Source: an uncultured Opitutia bacterium
Lineage (GTDB): Bacteria; Verrucomicrobiota; Verrucomicrobiia; Opitutales; Opitutaceae
Length of the DNA: 64,000 nt
Assembly: GCA_903902745.1 (NCBI GenBank)
Contig: CAIUWA010000047.1
Location: 1 to 64,000, forward strand
Direction of reading: 5' to 3'
Under the pieces are notes generated by a model that saw only the letters and a program-made list of their open reading frames with translations, ran no database searches and was not told the origin of the DNA. Positions within the stretch are counted from its first letter, which is position 1. Each line of letters opens with the position of its first letter. Made by a program: the position numbers and the translations under genes. This document shows, in pieces, positions 48,725 through 58,659 of this stretch.

Positions 48725-48789
48725 TAATTTCCATATAGAATTAAAATTTGCCCGGCCCGGGATTTCGGTTAGCCACACCCTTCTACCCT
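48725..48789. promoter_or_regulatory. Probable promoter region of the hydrolase gene
   Basis: An AT-rich stretch, TTCCATATAGAATTAAAATT at 48729-48748, stands out from the surrounding GC-rich DNA about 45 bases before the start codon, followed by TTCTACCCT directly before the ATG. This is consistent with a promoter, though exact boxes cannot be fixed. Confidence 0.4.
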
Positions 48790-49644
48790 ATGAAAACCCG
48801 TTTACTCCTCGGCTTGATCCTGGGGGCCGTGCTGAGCGCGCGCGCCGCCGTCCAGACTGACATCGAATACGGCAATGTCGGCGGAGAGAAGCTGCTGCTC
48901 GACGCCTCCATTCCCGACGGTCCCGGCCCCTGGCCCGCCGTGATCCTGGTCCACGGCGGCGGCTGGACGGCCGGCGACAAAAGCGGCGGCCCGCAAAAGG
49001 GCTACATGGCCCCGATGCACGAGCCGCTGTCAAAGGCCGGCTTCGCGTGGTTTTCCATCAACTACCGCCTCGCGCCGAAGCACCGCTGGCCCGCGGGGCT
49101 GGAGGATGTCGAAACCGCGATCCGCTGGGTCAAGGCCCACGCGGCGCAATACCACCTCGATCCCCAGCGCATCGTTCTCTCCGGCGAATCCGCCGGCGGC
49201 CAGCTCATCAACATGGCCGCCGTGCGCGCCACGCCCGAGACCCGGGTCGCGGCGGTCGTGACCTTTTATGGCTCGGCCAACCTCCTGTTGAACGCCCAGG
49301 ATCCCGACGGCAAGCTGGGCGCCAGCCGCGCCGCGCTGCTTGGCCGCACCGAATTCGACGAGCCGACCAAGGCTATGCTCCAGGAGGCGTCGGCCATCAA
49401 CTTCATCAAGCCGGGCTTGCCGCCGTTCCTGCTCGTGCACGGCACGAAGGATGAGAAGGTGCCCTACGAAGGCTCCGTGGCATTCCAGGCGAAGCTGCGC
49501 GCCGCCGGCGTGCCCTGCGAACTCATCACGATCAAGGACGGTCCGCACGGCATGCTGCCCTGGCCGCCGCTCGCGCCCCATTTCAAGGACGAGGTTGTCG
49601 CGTGGCTCCGGACCACGCTGAAGCTCCCCGCCGCAAAGCCGTAG
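48790..49644 (+). CDS. Secreted BD-FAE-type alpha/beta hydrolase, paralogue 1
   Basis: A 284-residue exported esterase-like enzyme. Signal peptide MKTRLLLGLILGAVLSARA. The oxyanion motif is VHGGGWTAGDKSGG, the nucleophile elbow is SGESAGGQLINMAA, an acid lies in LVHGTKDEKVPYEG and the catalytic His in IKDGPHGMLPW. The HGGGW motif and the layout match the BD-FAE (bacterial feruloyl-esterase-like) group that deacylates plant polysaccharides, though many members have other esters as substrate. A second copy lies at 57820-58659, about 60 percent identical by eye. Single gene, apparently. Confidence 0.88.
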   Translation: MKTRLLLGLILGAVLSARAAVQTDIEYGNVGGEKLLLDASIPDGPGPWPAVILVHGGGWTAGDKSGGPQKGYMAPMHEPLSKAGFAWFSINYRLAPKHRWPAGLEDVETAIRWVKAHAAQYHLDPQRIVLSGESAGGQLINMAAVRATPETRVAAVVTFYGSANLLLNAQDPDGKLGASRAALLGRTEFDEPTKAMLQEASAINFIKPGLPPFLLVHGTKDEKVPYEGSVAFQAKLRAAGVPCELITIKDGPHGMLPWPPLAPHFKDEVVAWLRTTLKLPAAKP

Positions 49645-55127: not shown

Positions 55128-57683
55128 ATGTCTGCAGAATCCAGCCGAGCGGTTTTTCTCAGCTACGCCTCGCAGGATGCGGAAGCGGCGAGACGCATTT
55201 GTCAGGCACTGCGAGCCGCCGGAGCCGAGGTTTGGTTCGACCAAAGCGAACTCGTCGGCGGAGATGCCTGGGACGCCAAGATTCGCCGGCAGATCAAGGA
55301 GTGCGTGCTCTTCGTGCCGATGATCTCGGCCAGCACCCAGGCGCGGGCCGAGGGATATTTCCGGCGCGAGTGGAAACTGGCGGTCGAGCGGACCCACGAC
55401 ATGGCCGACCATGTGGCGTTCCTGCTGCCGGTGGTGCTCGATGGGACGACGGATCGCGAGGCCCATGTGCCGGAAAAATTTCGCGAGGTGCAATGGACGC
55501 GCGTGCAAACGGCCGGGGCTGAGACGGCCTTCGCGCAGCGGGTGATCAAGCTGCTCGGGGTCACGCCTCCGCCCGCTTCGCTCCCGGACAGCGCAGCACC
55601 CCGTTCCGAGGGAAAAACCACCGCGCCGCTCGTCGCCAGCACCAGCCCGCGGCCGGGACTGAAGGCGCGGCCTCCGCACCGATGGCCGGCCGCGGCCGCG
55701 GTGGCCCTGGTGCTCGCGTTGGGCATCACCATCGCCTGGTTCTGGCAGCGGAACACCCGGCTCCGCCATGTGCAGGAAACGATGCTGCCGGAAATCGAGC
55801 GGCTGATCGCCGCGCGGAATTTTGGCGCCGCCTTCGACTTGGCGGTAGCCGCCGAGCGTGAGGTGCCCACCAACACCGCGGTCAAAGCCTTCTGGCCGCG
55901 CATCGCCGTGACGACATCCGTTGAGACCACGCCGGCTGGCGCAGACATTTACGTGAAGGAATACTACCAGCCACAATCCGAGTGGCGTTATCTCGGAAAG
56001 ACCCCGTTGCGCGAGGTGCGGTTGCCGAAGGTCTATTCTCGTTGGAAAATACAGCAGGAGGGCTGCGCTCCGCTCGAGCGTGCGCTGGGCGTAGACGCCC
56101 TGGTCCATTTCGATCTCGATCCGGCGGCCGCCATCCCCGCCGACATGGTGAAGGTCGGCGCCGGGAGCCTGCTGTCCATTTTCACCGGATTTCCCAGTCT
56201 CAAACTGGATGAGTTTCTCATCGACCGTTACGAGGTCACCAACCGGCAGTTCAAGAAATTTGTCGACGCCGGGGGCTACCAGAACCCCGCTTTTTGGCGG
56301 CAGCCTTTTGTGCGCGCGGGCAAGGCGCTGAGCCGGGAGGAGGCGTTCGCGGAGTTTCACGACAGCACGGGCCAGCCGGGCCCGGCGACTTGGAAGAACG
56401 GAACCTATCCGGACAGTGAAGCCGATTTTCCCGTCACGGGCGTCAGTTGGTTCGAGGCCGCAGCCTACGCTGAGTTCGCGGGCAAGCGGTTGCCGTCGGT
56501 CTATCACTGGAGCGTGGCGGCGCAGGTGGCGGAGTTCGAATCGCTGGTCCCGCTGAGCAATCTGGCCGGCCGCGGTCTGGCGCGAGGCGGGACCTTTCAA
56601 GGCATGAGCGCGTGGGGCGCCTACGATCTGGCAGGCAATGCGAAGGAATGGTGTTGGAATGCGGGCGGCGGCGAGACGCGCTACGTGCTCGGCGGGGCAT
56701 GGCGCGAGCCGGGCTACATGTTTGCGCAAAAGGATGCGCAGGCCCCCTTCGACCGGGCCGCAACCTACGGCTTCCGTTGCATGAAGCTGATCGGAGCTGA
56801 TCCATTGCCGGCGCAGGTCGACGCCGAGCTTGCCCTCCAACTCCGCAACTATGCCGAGGAGCGGCCCGTCAGCGACGAGGTTTACCGGGCGTTCCGCGGT
56901 CTTTATTATTACGACAAGTCGCCGCTGGAGGCCCGCACCGAGGCCGTGGACGAGGCGGACCCGCGGTGGCGGAGGGAAAAAATATCCTTCCGCGCGGCCT
57001 ACGGCAACGAGCGGATCCCGGCGTTGCTGTATCTGCCCAAGAATGCCACGCCGCCTTTTCAGACCATCATCTACTTTCCCACCAGCGATGCCAACCGGGT
57101 GAAATCCCCCGACGAAGCGGTGGAAGACATGGCGATGGTCGCCATGCTCGTGGCGAGTGGCCGGGCGTTGATCTACCCCACCTACAAAGGGACCTTTGAC
57201 CGTTACGATAAATTTCCGCCGGGCACGCTGTTGAGCTCTTTCCGCGATCAGATGGTGATGGTCGCGAAAGATTTGGGGCGGACGATCGATTATTTGGAAA
57301 CGCGGCCCGACATCCAAACCGGCCAGCAGGCTTTCTTCGGCTACAGTGCCGGCGGCACCAACGGTTCGATCCTTCCGGCAGTCGAGACTCGCCTGAAGGC
57401 CAGTATTCTGGTGGCCGCAGGCTTCTCCCAGGGAAAGTCATTGCCCGAAGCGGACCCGATCAACTTCGCGTCCCGCAACCTGGTCCCCACCCTCATGCTC
57501 AATGGCCGTTACGATTTCGCCCGTCCCGTGGAGCTAAGCCAGCTTCCCCTGTTCCGACTACTCGGCGCGACGCCCGAAAACAAACGCCATGTTTTGTTCG
57601 ACACCGGTCATACGTTAAGGCCGGAGCAGGTGGCCAGCGAAGTGTATGTCTGGCTCGATCGCTATCTCGGAATGGTGAAATGA
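55128..57683 (+). CDS. TIR - transmembrane - PEGA-like - SUMF1/FGE-like - alpha/beta hydrolase fusion
   Basis: An 851-residue five-part protein. (1) TIR domain, 7-145: AVFLSYASQDAEAARRICQA, EVWFDQSELVGGDAWDAKIR, and Glu81 in YFRREWKLA at the place of the catalytic Glu of TIR NADases. (2) A linker and one membrane helix, 187-206. (3) A PEGA-like domain, about 260-330 (TTPAGADIYVKEYY, YLGKTPLREVRLP). (4) A SUMF1/FGE-like domain, 335-555 (LIDRYEVTNRQFKKFVDAGG, PVTGVSWFEAAAYAEFAGKR, YDLAGNAKEWCWN). (5) An alpha/beta hydrolase, 600-851: FGYSAGG (Ser740), Asp796 and His828. In related proteins part 1 is a Ser/Thr kinase. TIR would be cytoplasmic, the rest periplasmic. Confidence 0.88.
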   Translation: MSAESSRAVFLSYASQDAEAARRICQALRAAGAEVWFDQSELVGGDAWDAKIRRQIKECVLFVPMISASTQARAEGYFRREWKLAVERTHDMADHVAFLLPVVLDGTTDREAHVPEKFREVQWTRVQTAGAETAFAQRVIKLLGVTPPPASLPDSAAPRSEGKTTAPLVASTSPRPGLKARPPHRWPAAAAVALVLALGITIAWFWQRNTRLRHVQETMLPEIERLIAARNFGAAFDLAVAAEREVPTNTAVKAFWPRIAVTTSVETTPAGADIYVKEYYQPQSEWRYLGKTPLREVRLPKVYSRWKIQQEGCAPLERALGVDALVHFDLDPAAAIPADMVKVGAGSLLSIFTGFPSLKLDEFLIDRYEVTNRQFKKFVDAGGYQNPAFWRQPFVRAGKALSREEAFAEFHDSTGQPGPATWKNGTYPDSEADFPVTGVSWFEAAAYAEFAGKRLPSVYHWSVAAQVAEFESLVPLSNLAGRGLARGGTFQGMSAWGAYDLAGNAKEWCWNAGGGETRYVLGGAWREPGYMFAQKDAQAPFDRAATYGFRCMKLIGADPLPAQVDAELALQLRNYAEERPVSDEVYRAFRGLYYYDKSPLEARTEAVDEADPRWRREKISFRAAYGNERIPALLYLPKNATPPFQTIIYFPTSDANRVKSPDEAVEDMAMVAMLVASGRALIYPTYKGTFDRYDKFPPGTLLSSFRDQMVMVAKDLGRTIDYLETRPDIQTGQQAFFGYSAGGTNGSILPAVETRLKASILVAAGFSQGKSLPEADPINFASRNLVPTLMLNGRYDFARPVELSQLPLFRLLGATPENKRHVLFDTGHTLRPEQVASEVYVWLDRYLGMVK

Positions 57684-57819: not shown

Positions 57820-58659
57820 ATGAAACGATTCCTGCTTTCCGCCTGCACGCTCGTCCTCTGCTCCCTGGCCCGGGCCGGGCTCACTACGGACATCGAATAT
57901 GCCAACGTTGACGGCGAGAGCATCCGCCTCGATGCCTTTGTCCCCGATGGCCCGGGACCGTTTCCCACGGTCATCATGGTGCATGGCGGTGGCTGGAACA
58001 GCGGCGACAAATCCGGCGGCCGGAGCAAGGGGCTCATGGCGCCGATGGACGAGCCACTGTCCCGCGCGGGCTTCGTCTGGTTTGAGATCAACTACCGGCT
58101 GACGCCCAAGTATCTCTATCCGGCTTGCATCAATGATGTCGAAGCAGCGATCCGCTGGGTCAAGGCCCACGCCGCCGAATATCATGTCGATCCGAGCCGC
58201 ATCGCGCTCGCCGGTGAGTCCTCCGGCGGACATCTCGTCGACCTGGCCGCGGCGCGCGCGGACAAGTCGACGCAGGTCGCCGCGGTGGTTTCATTCTATG
58301 GGGTCGATGACCTCGTGGCCCAGGCGAAGGCGAAGTCGGCCGACGGCAATGTGTTCAAGCTCTTCGGCATCACGCAGCTCGATTTGAAGACGATCCCCAT
58401 GCTCCAAGCCGCCTCGGCCGCCACCTACCTCAAGCCGGGGCTGCCGCCCTTTCTCCTCGTGCATGGTGACGCCGACCAGAAGGTGCCCTATGAGCAGGAC
58501 GTCCTTTTCCGCACCAAGCTCCTCGCCCTCGGCGTGCCCTGTGAGCTGATCACCATCCACGGCGGCGCGCATGGCATGAACAGCTGGGAAAAGGTCGCGC
58601 CAGAGTACAAGGACCAGGTCGTCGCCTGGCTCCGGAAGACCCTGGCTGCGCATCCCTGA
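57820..58659 (+). CDS. Secreted BD-FAE-type alpha/beta hydrolase, paralogue 2
   Basis: A 279-residue exported paralogue of the protein at 48790-49644. Signal peptide MKRFLLSACTLVLCSLARA. The motifs are VHGGGWNSGDKSGG, AGESSGGHLVDLAA (nucleophile), VHGDADQKVPYEQD and IHGGAHGMNSW. Compared with copy 1, the segment after FYGVDDLVAQAKAK is rearranged (FKLFGITQLDLKTIPML), which lies over the active site and could change specificity. It is preceded by the TIR fusion gene with a 136-base gap and followed by a REP element, so it may be transcribed alone. Confidence 0.87.
   Translation: MKRFLLSACTLVLCSLARAGLTTDIEYANVDGESIRLDAFVPDGPGPFPTVIMVHGGGWNSGDKSGGRSKGLMAPMDEPLSRAGFVWFEINYRLTPKYLYPACINDVEAAIRWVKAHAAEYHVDPSRIALAGESSGGHLVDLAAARADKSTQVAAVVSFYGVDDLVAQAKAKSADGNVFKLFGITQLDLKTIPMLQAASAATYLKPGLPPFLLVHGDADQKVPYEQDVLFRTKLLALGVPCELITIHGGAHGMNSWEKVAPEYKDQVVAWLRKTLAAHP

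Follow-up and report, generated by a model that had tools for sequence, protein, structure and literature searches.

The window, by which the whole 64,000-nucleotide stretch of DNA analysed here is meant, carries at 55128..57683 (+) a gene that is a single open frame of 851 aa with no internal stop. Its product combines a TIR domain, one transmembrane helix (TM) and an outer module of three parts. The features of the gene are as follows.

55128..57683 (+): whole gene, 851 aa, TIR - TM - PEGA-like - FGE-fold - CE7-like hydrolase
55152..55532 (+): TIR_2 domain, residues 9-135 (Pfam and AlphaFold2 model)
55368..55370 (+): Glu81, candidate catalytic glutamate (conservation, SPARTA alignment, model helix 77-89)
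55689..55745 (+): single transmembrane helix, residues 188-206 (hydropathy)
55746..55913 (+): juxtamembrane helices, residues 207-262 (outer-module model)
55911..56096 (+): PEGA-like beta domain, residues 262-323 (weak Pfam match, model)
56199..56783 (+): FGE/SUMF1-fold domain without the catalytic Cys pair, residues 358-552 (Pfam and fold match)
56844..57674 (+): CE7-like alpha/beta hydrolase, residues 573-849 (fold match of the model)
57345..57347 (+): Ser740, nucleophile in GYSAGG (invariant in 21 outer modules)
57513..57515 (+): Asp796 (invariant in 21 outer modules)
57609..57611 (+): His828 (invariant in 21 outer modules)

The initial annotation read these as five modules in one frame, and the same layout was recovered, at 74% identity across 851 residues, in a protein from another genus of Opitutaceae (L032/L051). 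Further full-length relatives were 55% (L052) and 41-44% (L054/L055/L056/L072) identical. In a codon comparison with the 74% relative, dN/dS was 0.20 over the gene as a whole, 0.14 in the TIR domain and 0.20 in both the FGE and the hydrolase domains, and the linker (0.39) and the helix (0.54) were less constrained. As dN/dS is low in each, the TIR half and the outer half are both maintained by purifying selection within one gene. Two merged genes, a frameshift or an assembly error, the first two of which the annotation had itself raised, were ruled out by the full-length relatives and the uniform purifying selection.

Comparison of gene neighbourhoods, also proposed earlier, gave nothing conserved: the neighbours of the window gene had no counterparts beside the relatives in L032, L034, L031 or L052, which rules out a conserved operon, and neither a partner gene nor a downstream effector could be identified at these loci. 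The window also encodes, at 48748-49644 and 57820-58659, two esterases that are related to each other and predicted to be of the LipQ / hormone-sensitive lipase type, the latter directly downstream of the TIR gene; both have an apparent N-terminal signal peptide, as judged by eye, and may be secreted.

The N-terminal domain was correctly named as TIR. Pfam TIR_2 matched residues 9-135 (E 4.6e-20, 72.8 bits against a cut-off of 28), and structure prediction of residues 1-150 with AlphaFold2, which had been suggested as a check, returned a flavodoxin-like TIR fold (pLDDT 86.9) with VIA Z scores of 16.6 to the RUN1 TIR, 15-16.5 to SPARTA TIRs and 15.4 to AbTir; among the matches listed, which also include SARM1, Z ranged from 13.7 to 16.6. 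Glu81, picked out beforehand as the candidate catalytic residue, is well placed in a REWK motif and is identical in 161/161 related TIR domains. Profile alignment to the SPARTA TIR 8qlo sets it on the glutamate counted as E77, the position of the catalytic mutant (PMC10474274), and it sits within helix 77-89 of the model. The conserved glutamate that catalytic TIR NADases have in helix alpha-C is thus present, and a place for Glu81 in the pocket is predicted from alignment and secondary structure. Ser12 does not vary within the same 161 domains, and Asp38 is conserved in 99% of them; by residue count these are S140 and D167 of AbTir, positions reported to affect NADase activity (PMC11374754). 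The Trp of the WxxxE motif (AbTir Trp204) is replaced by Tyr77, so that the motif reads YxxxE here, and Tyr occupies this position in 96% of the 161 TIRs. Because that Trp is strongly conserved in TIRs making cyclic ADP-ribose (PMC11374754), a non-cyclic product, plain ADP-ribose, may be the likelier guess. Cleavage of NAD+ by the TIR domain, set off by binding or hydrolysis of an envelope ligand at the outer module, is probable.

The segment behind the helix was modelled as residues 207-851 (pLDDT 87.0). The juxtamembrane region forms helices 2-22, 26-39 and 44-53 of this model, and the alignment shows these helices (residues 207-262) to be conserved with the kinase-bearing relatives. The PEGA-like segment of the annotation fell short of the Pfam cut-off in the window protein itself (residues 262-323, E 0.059, a weak match of 13.7 bits against 20.8); PEGA was over the cut-off at the same place in the homologues L057, L059, L061 and L069, and the segment is all-beta in the model. 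Residues 358-552 matched Pfam FGE-sulfatase (E 8.4e-26), and this part gave VIA Z scores of 21-22.7 to EgtB (22.7) and CalU17, so that the SUMF1-like domain stands as a fold. It does not stand as a formylglycine-generating enzyme: the redox-active Cys pair of FGE, which by reference to SUMF1 we take to follow a GGS(F/W) motif, was absent at its position in 21/21 aligned proteins, GGxWxEPxYM standing at the Cys-motif place in the outer-module alignment, and an active enzyme of this kind was ruled out. As the catalytic pair is lacking, the domain is probably a binding domain.

For the C-terminal third of the window protein no Pfam match to a hydrolase was obtained, and in the homologues this third was matched by the Pfam DLH, AXE1, PETase or Abhydrolase models. 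The hydrolase model had VIA Z scores of 25.2 to the acetyl xylan esterase of Bacillus pumilus and about 25 to cephalosporin C deacetylase. Ser740, Asp796 and His828, the triad given in the initial annotation, are kept without exception in the 21 aligned outer modules (alignment columns S534, D590 and H622). From the triad and the model, this part is probably an active esterase or deacetylase.

One strongly hydrophobic segment, residues 188-206, was found (hydropathy 2.17 over 19 residues) with no other strong hydrophobic stretch, in agreement with the single helix first described, and every TIR, STK (Ser/Thr kinase) and wHTH (winged-helix DNA-binding) relative has a helix in the corresponding position. 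Since wHTH, kinase and TIR domains need the cytoplasm (for DNA, ATP and NAD), we infer that the part C-terminal to the helix lies outside the inner membrane. The net charge of the flanking residues averages +3.2 before the helix and +2.4 after it, and the positive-inside rule, applied to these sequences, weakly backs the same orientation.

The outer module (residues 207-851) was searched for in genome contigs and whole genomes, and the sequences compared include metagenome-assembled genomes (MAGs). It was found in 33/297 sampled Acidobacteriota genomes, in 7/252 genomes of Opitutaceae (the family of the window), in 1/388 sampled genomes of the window's phylum (the window's own genome) and in 1/274 genomes of the sampled proteobacterial class (the centre genome itself), and is mostly acidobacterial. 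Among 55 distinct outer modules the N-terminal partner was a kinase in 38, TIR in eight, TIR plus kinase in two, wHTH in two and wHTH plus kinase in one. The remaining four had no detected N-terminal domain, and at least some of these are incomplete, cut by contig ends. Pkinase, Trans_reg_C and TIR_2 were confirmed by Pfam in representatives; no kinase domain was found by Pfam in the window protein.

The statement that a Ser/Thr kinase occupies the TIR position in related bacterial proteins was thus borne out, with the same outer module behind the kinases, and these kinases retain the HRD and DFG motifs. The genome-wide search for the TIR form, another of the suggested checks, showed the architecture to be present in four or more Opitutaceae genomes and in four MAGs labelled Proteobacteria or Gammaproteobacteria, with one TIR-bearing outer module from each of these four. 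Both TIR-STK outer-module genes (L033/L053 and L105) contain in-frame stop codons and may be decayed or mis-assembled; the two copies that document the TIR-STK intermediate are thus imperfect ones. Stops are likewise seen in further TIR genes from the L033 genome. At L168:22-3513 (G745) a wHTH and a Ser/Thr kinase both stand ahead of the PEGA-FGE-hydrolase module.

The TIR-membrane half occurs in front of other modules as well. At least 99 of 161 distinct TIRs are followed by a TolB-like segment, as a rule accompanied by TPR repeats, and genes of this TIR-TM-TolB/TPR type often stand in tandem arrays, the longest with about ten members. The closest TIR outside the family of the 851-aa protein belongs to a TIR-TolB/TPR protein in the window's genus (78% identity), and the TIR of L052 is 89% identical to that of a TPR-type protein in the same genome. 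Because the closest TIRs sit in TPR-type proteins of the same genus or genome, repeated capture of TIR domains from resident arrays is likely, as far as sequence identity can tell.

Several further TIR loci were noted. The window's own genome has five TIR_2 matches in all and includes an array of three TIR-TM genes (L031:2274-9514, G000:C12), at least two of them with TolB-like/TPR modules. At L190:2619-7895 (G000:C12) of this genome lie two adjacent genes, both with a membrane helix and repeats; the start of the first resembles DUF4062 by eye, and the second is TIR-like with WD40-like repeats. DUF4062 is a TIR-like NADase family (PMC13174449). In L036:2431-7061 (-), L039:10180-15296 (-) and L047:6794-11932 (+) a short TIR gene (~145 aa) inside a TIR-TM-TPR array adjoins a gene of 1075-1112 aa, in which Pfam found nSTAND1 in L036 and L047. 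PADLOC gave no match for the short-TIR/nSTAND1 loci L036 and L047, and the short TIR with nSTAND1 looks like an undescribed conflict pair.

In the outer-module tree the ten TIR-bearing entries did not form one clade (AU p 2.7e-8), and a single origin of all TIR versions was rejected on this tree. From the outermost branch inward, the window's clade consists of STK versions (L143, L177, L057), TIR-STK versions (L105, L033/L053) and TIR versions (L052, L032 and the window). Starred support was obtained for the five-member TIR/TIR-STK set (99/96) and for the three-member TIR set (100/100). The proteobacterial TIR group was placed elsewhere, beside kinase versions (97/87), and L178, a TIR version from Opitutaceae, occupies a third place with its exact sister unsure (81/95). 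On starred branches the TIR label must change at least three times. The exchange of kinase for TIR suggested by the initial annotation is supported by this tree and by the TIR-plus-kinase proteins in between. With the tree rooted at its midpoint, kinase to TIR is the simplest direction, as kinases occur throughout it.

In the tree of TIR domains the L052 TIR fell in another starred set than that of the window, from which a separate gain of TIR within the window's own clade is suggested. For TIR domains only, one TIR origin had an AU p of 0.04 (six entries), and the hypothesis that the TIRs of the window, L032 and L052 arose once was not rejected (AU p 0.136, on a short domain). An unbroken fusion of TIR, Ser/Thr kinase, TM and TPR_10/TPR_12 in a further genome, at L188:1366-4125 (G1069), encodes a two-output receptor and shows a second instance of TIR being fused to a kinase receptor, so that the fusion step occurred elsewhere too.

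Taken together, we assign a probability of about 0.6 to the reading that the window protein is a one-component transmembrane receptor whose kinase output has been exchanged for TIR, and for which we infer NAD+ cleavage, topology and ligand. In this receptor the PEGA-like, FGE-fold and CE7-like domains would bind, and probably deacylate, a ligand outside the inner membrane, which could be of envelope or environmental origin, perhaps an acylated glycan. Binding or clustering would be relayed inward by the juxtamembrane helices and the one helix that spans the membrane, and the cytoplasmic TIR domains would be brought together, a step proposed because SPARTA TIRs are activated in that way (PMC10474274). 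The assembled TIRs would then cleave NAD+ via the candidate Glu81, yielding nicotinamide and ADP-ribose or a related nucleotide signal. Such a receptor would have arisen from an ancestral Ser/Thr kinase, ahead of which TIR was first added and from which the kinase was then lost; the gene is in this way one product of a system in which TIR, kinase and wHTH are swapped on one outer module, and TIR itself among several outer modules.

An envelope-facing defence receptor, which would sense phage attachment, envelope damage or the product of a competitor and whose TIR would deplete NAD+ and kill or arrest the cell, is in our judgement unlikely. TIRs of this type do occur in anti-phage systems (SPARTA, AbTir-like folds), and the tandem arrays in which related TIR-TM-TPR genes are found change fast, some of them holding a TIR gene beside an nSTAND1 gene, an arrangement of the conflict-system type (PMC10907252, PMC7159879). 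Against this, the PADLOC match to the window protein is limited to its TIR domain, the best one joining protein residues 8-112 to 5-107 of a 430-position model. A known TIR defence system was ruled out on such purely local matches, and in line with the first remark on the layout no PADLOC model of a TIR defence system was matched by the full protein. The window copy stands alone, no known defence gene having been recognised among its neighbours. On the same outer module, kinase and wHTH versions point to ordinary regulation, and the dN/dS of 0.20 in the outer module carries no arms-race signal.

We think it improbable that the protein is a membrane-anchored periplasmic carbohydrate deacetylase, held on the cell wall by its FGE/PEGA-like parts and with a TIR domain that is structural and non-catalytic. 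The invariant Ser-Asp-His triad on a CE7-like fold would suit such an enzyme, as would the change of Trp to Tyr in the TIR WxxxE motif. A scaffold, however, would have no need for Glu81, Ser12 and Asp38, which are near-invariant in the 161 TIRs, nor would it explain a TIR dN/dS (0.14) among the lowest of the domains, and the kinases in the same position retain HRD and DFG. Hardly any credence is given to a functionless chimera of a TIR-TPR gene and a kinase-receptor gene, formed by mis-assembly or recent recombination, for although the nearest outside TIR is that of the same-genus TIR-TolB/TPR protein (78%) and the L052 TIR has its 89% match in the same genome, the architecture recurs in the Opitutaceae genomes and proteobacterial-labelled MAGs listed above and the 74% relative is full-length with a dN/dS of 0.20.

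Read as a receptor with a TIR output, the protein has several close counterparts. One group, known from Acidobacteriota, Myxococcota and Verrucomicrobiota, consists of STK - TM - PEGA - FGE-sulfatase - hydrolase proteins (for example L060, L058, L057). Their outer modules are homologous to that of the window protein over 640 residues (42-53%), with the same single helix and the same invariant triad; their cytoplasmic output is a kinase, whereas that of the window protein is TIR. The wHTH (Trans_reg_C, CadC-like) - TM - FGE - hydrolase proteins (L067, L152) likewise share the outer module and helix, with a DNA-binding domain as output in place of TIR. In the TIR - TM - TolB-like/TPR proteins of Opitutaceae and Proteobacteria the TIR is about 60-78% identical and the helix lies at the same place, but these proteins carry TolB-like and TPR parts as their outer module, and their genes often form tandem arrays.

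SPARTA TIR-APAZ, AbTir and RUN1 share the TIR fold (Z 15-16.6), and the SPARTA catalytic glutamate is aligned; unlike the window protein they are soluble, are triggered by guide/target nucleic acid or effectors and have no membrane helix, and AbTir has WxxxE where the window protein has YxxxE. Toll-like receptors consist of an ectodomain, a single helix and a cytoplasmic TIR, and animal TIRs recruit adaptors. The window protein is alike in outline, but it has the opposite chain polarity and an unrelated ectodomain and is not a member of that family. The CE7 acetyl xylan esterases and cephalosporin C deacetylases have the same fold (Z 25) and a Ser-Asp-His triad at 15-19% identity; the window hydrolase differs from them in being fused to a membrane receptor. 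FGE and EgtB share the fold of the middle domain (Z 21-23) and its Pfam FGE-sulfatase match, without the FGE Cys pair being present in the window protein. TIR and the FGE-type CLec fold are both among the domains of sensors diversified by diversity-generating retroelements (DGRs), for which a role as conflict sensors is proposed (PMC10907252). In contrast to those sensors the FGE domain here is internal and conserved, and a DGR target was ruled out, no RVT_1 reverse transcriptase being found in the 98%-complete window genome.

The domains are each known already, and STK receptors carrying the same outer module are frequently found in public genomes. No description of a TIR in the kinase position with a kinase-to-TIR series was found in the open-licence literature, which is weak evidence of novelty. 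Bacterial TIRs are known mainly from soluble defence systems. A TIR at the position of a kinase or transcription factor, with intermediates preserved, makes a role of NAD-derived signals in routine transmembrane signalling testable, and the STK, TIR-STK and TIR versions on one outer module form a natural domain-swap series for a change of receptor output. Outwardly the window receptor recalls Toll-like receptors, from which it is of independent make. The findings suggest that, in bacterial surface receptors, the TIR domain is one of several signal outputs that can be swapped for one another. More tentatively, and as a generalization that we would put at somewhat less than even odds, TIR may be, across one-component membrane receptors of bacteria in general, an exchangeable output that is positionally equivalent to kinases and wHTH domains and has replaced kinases more than once, via TIR-kinase intermediates in the window's clade; by NAD+ chemistry it would then relay signals from the envelope into the cell in ordinary regulation and not only in suicide defence.
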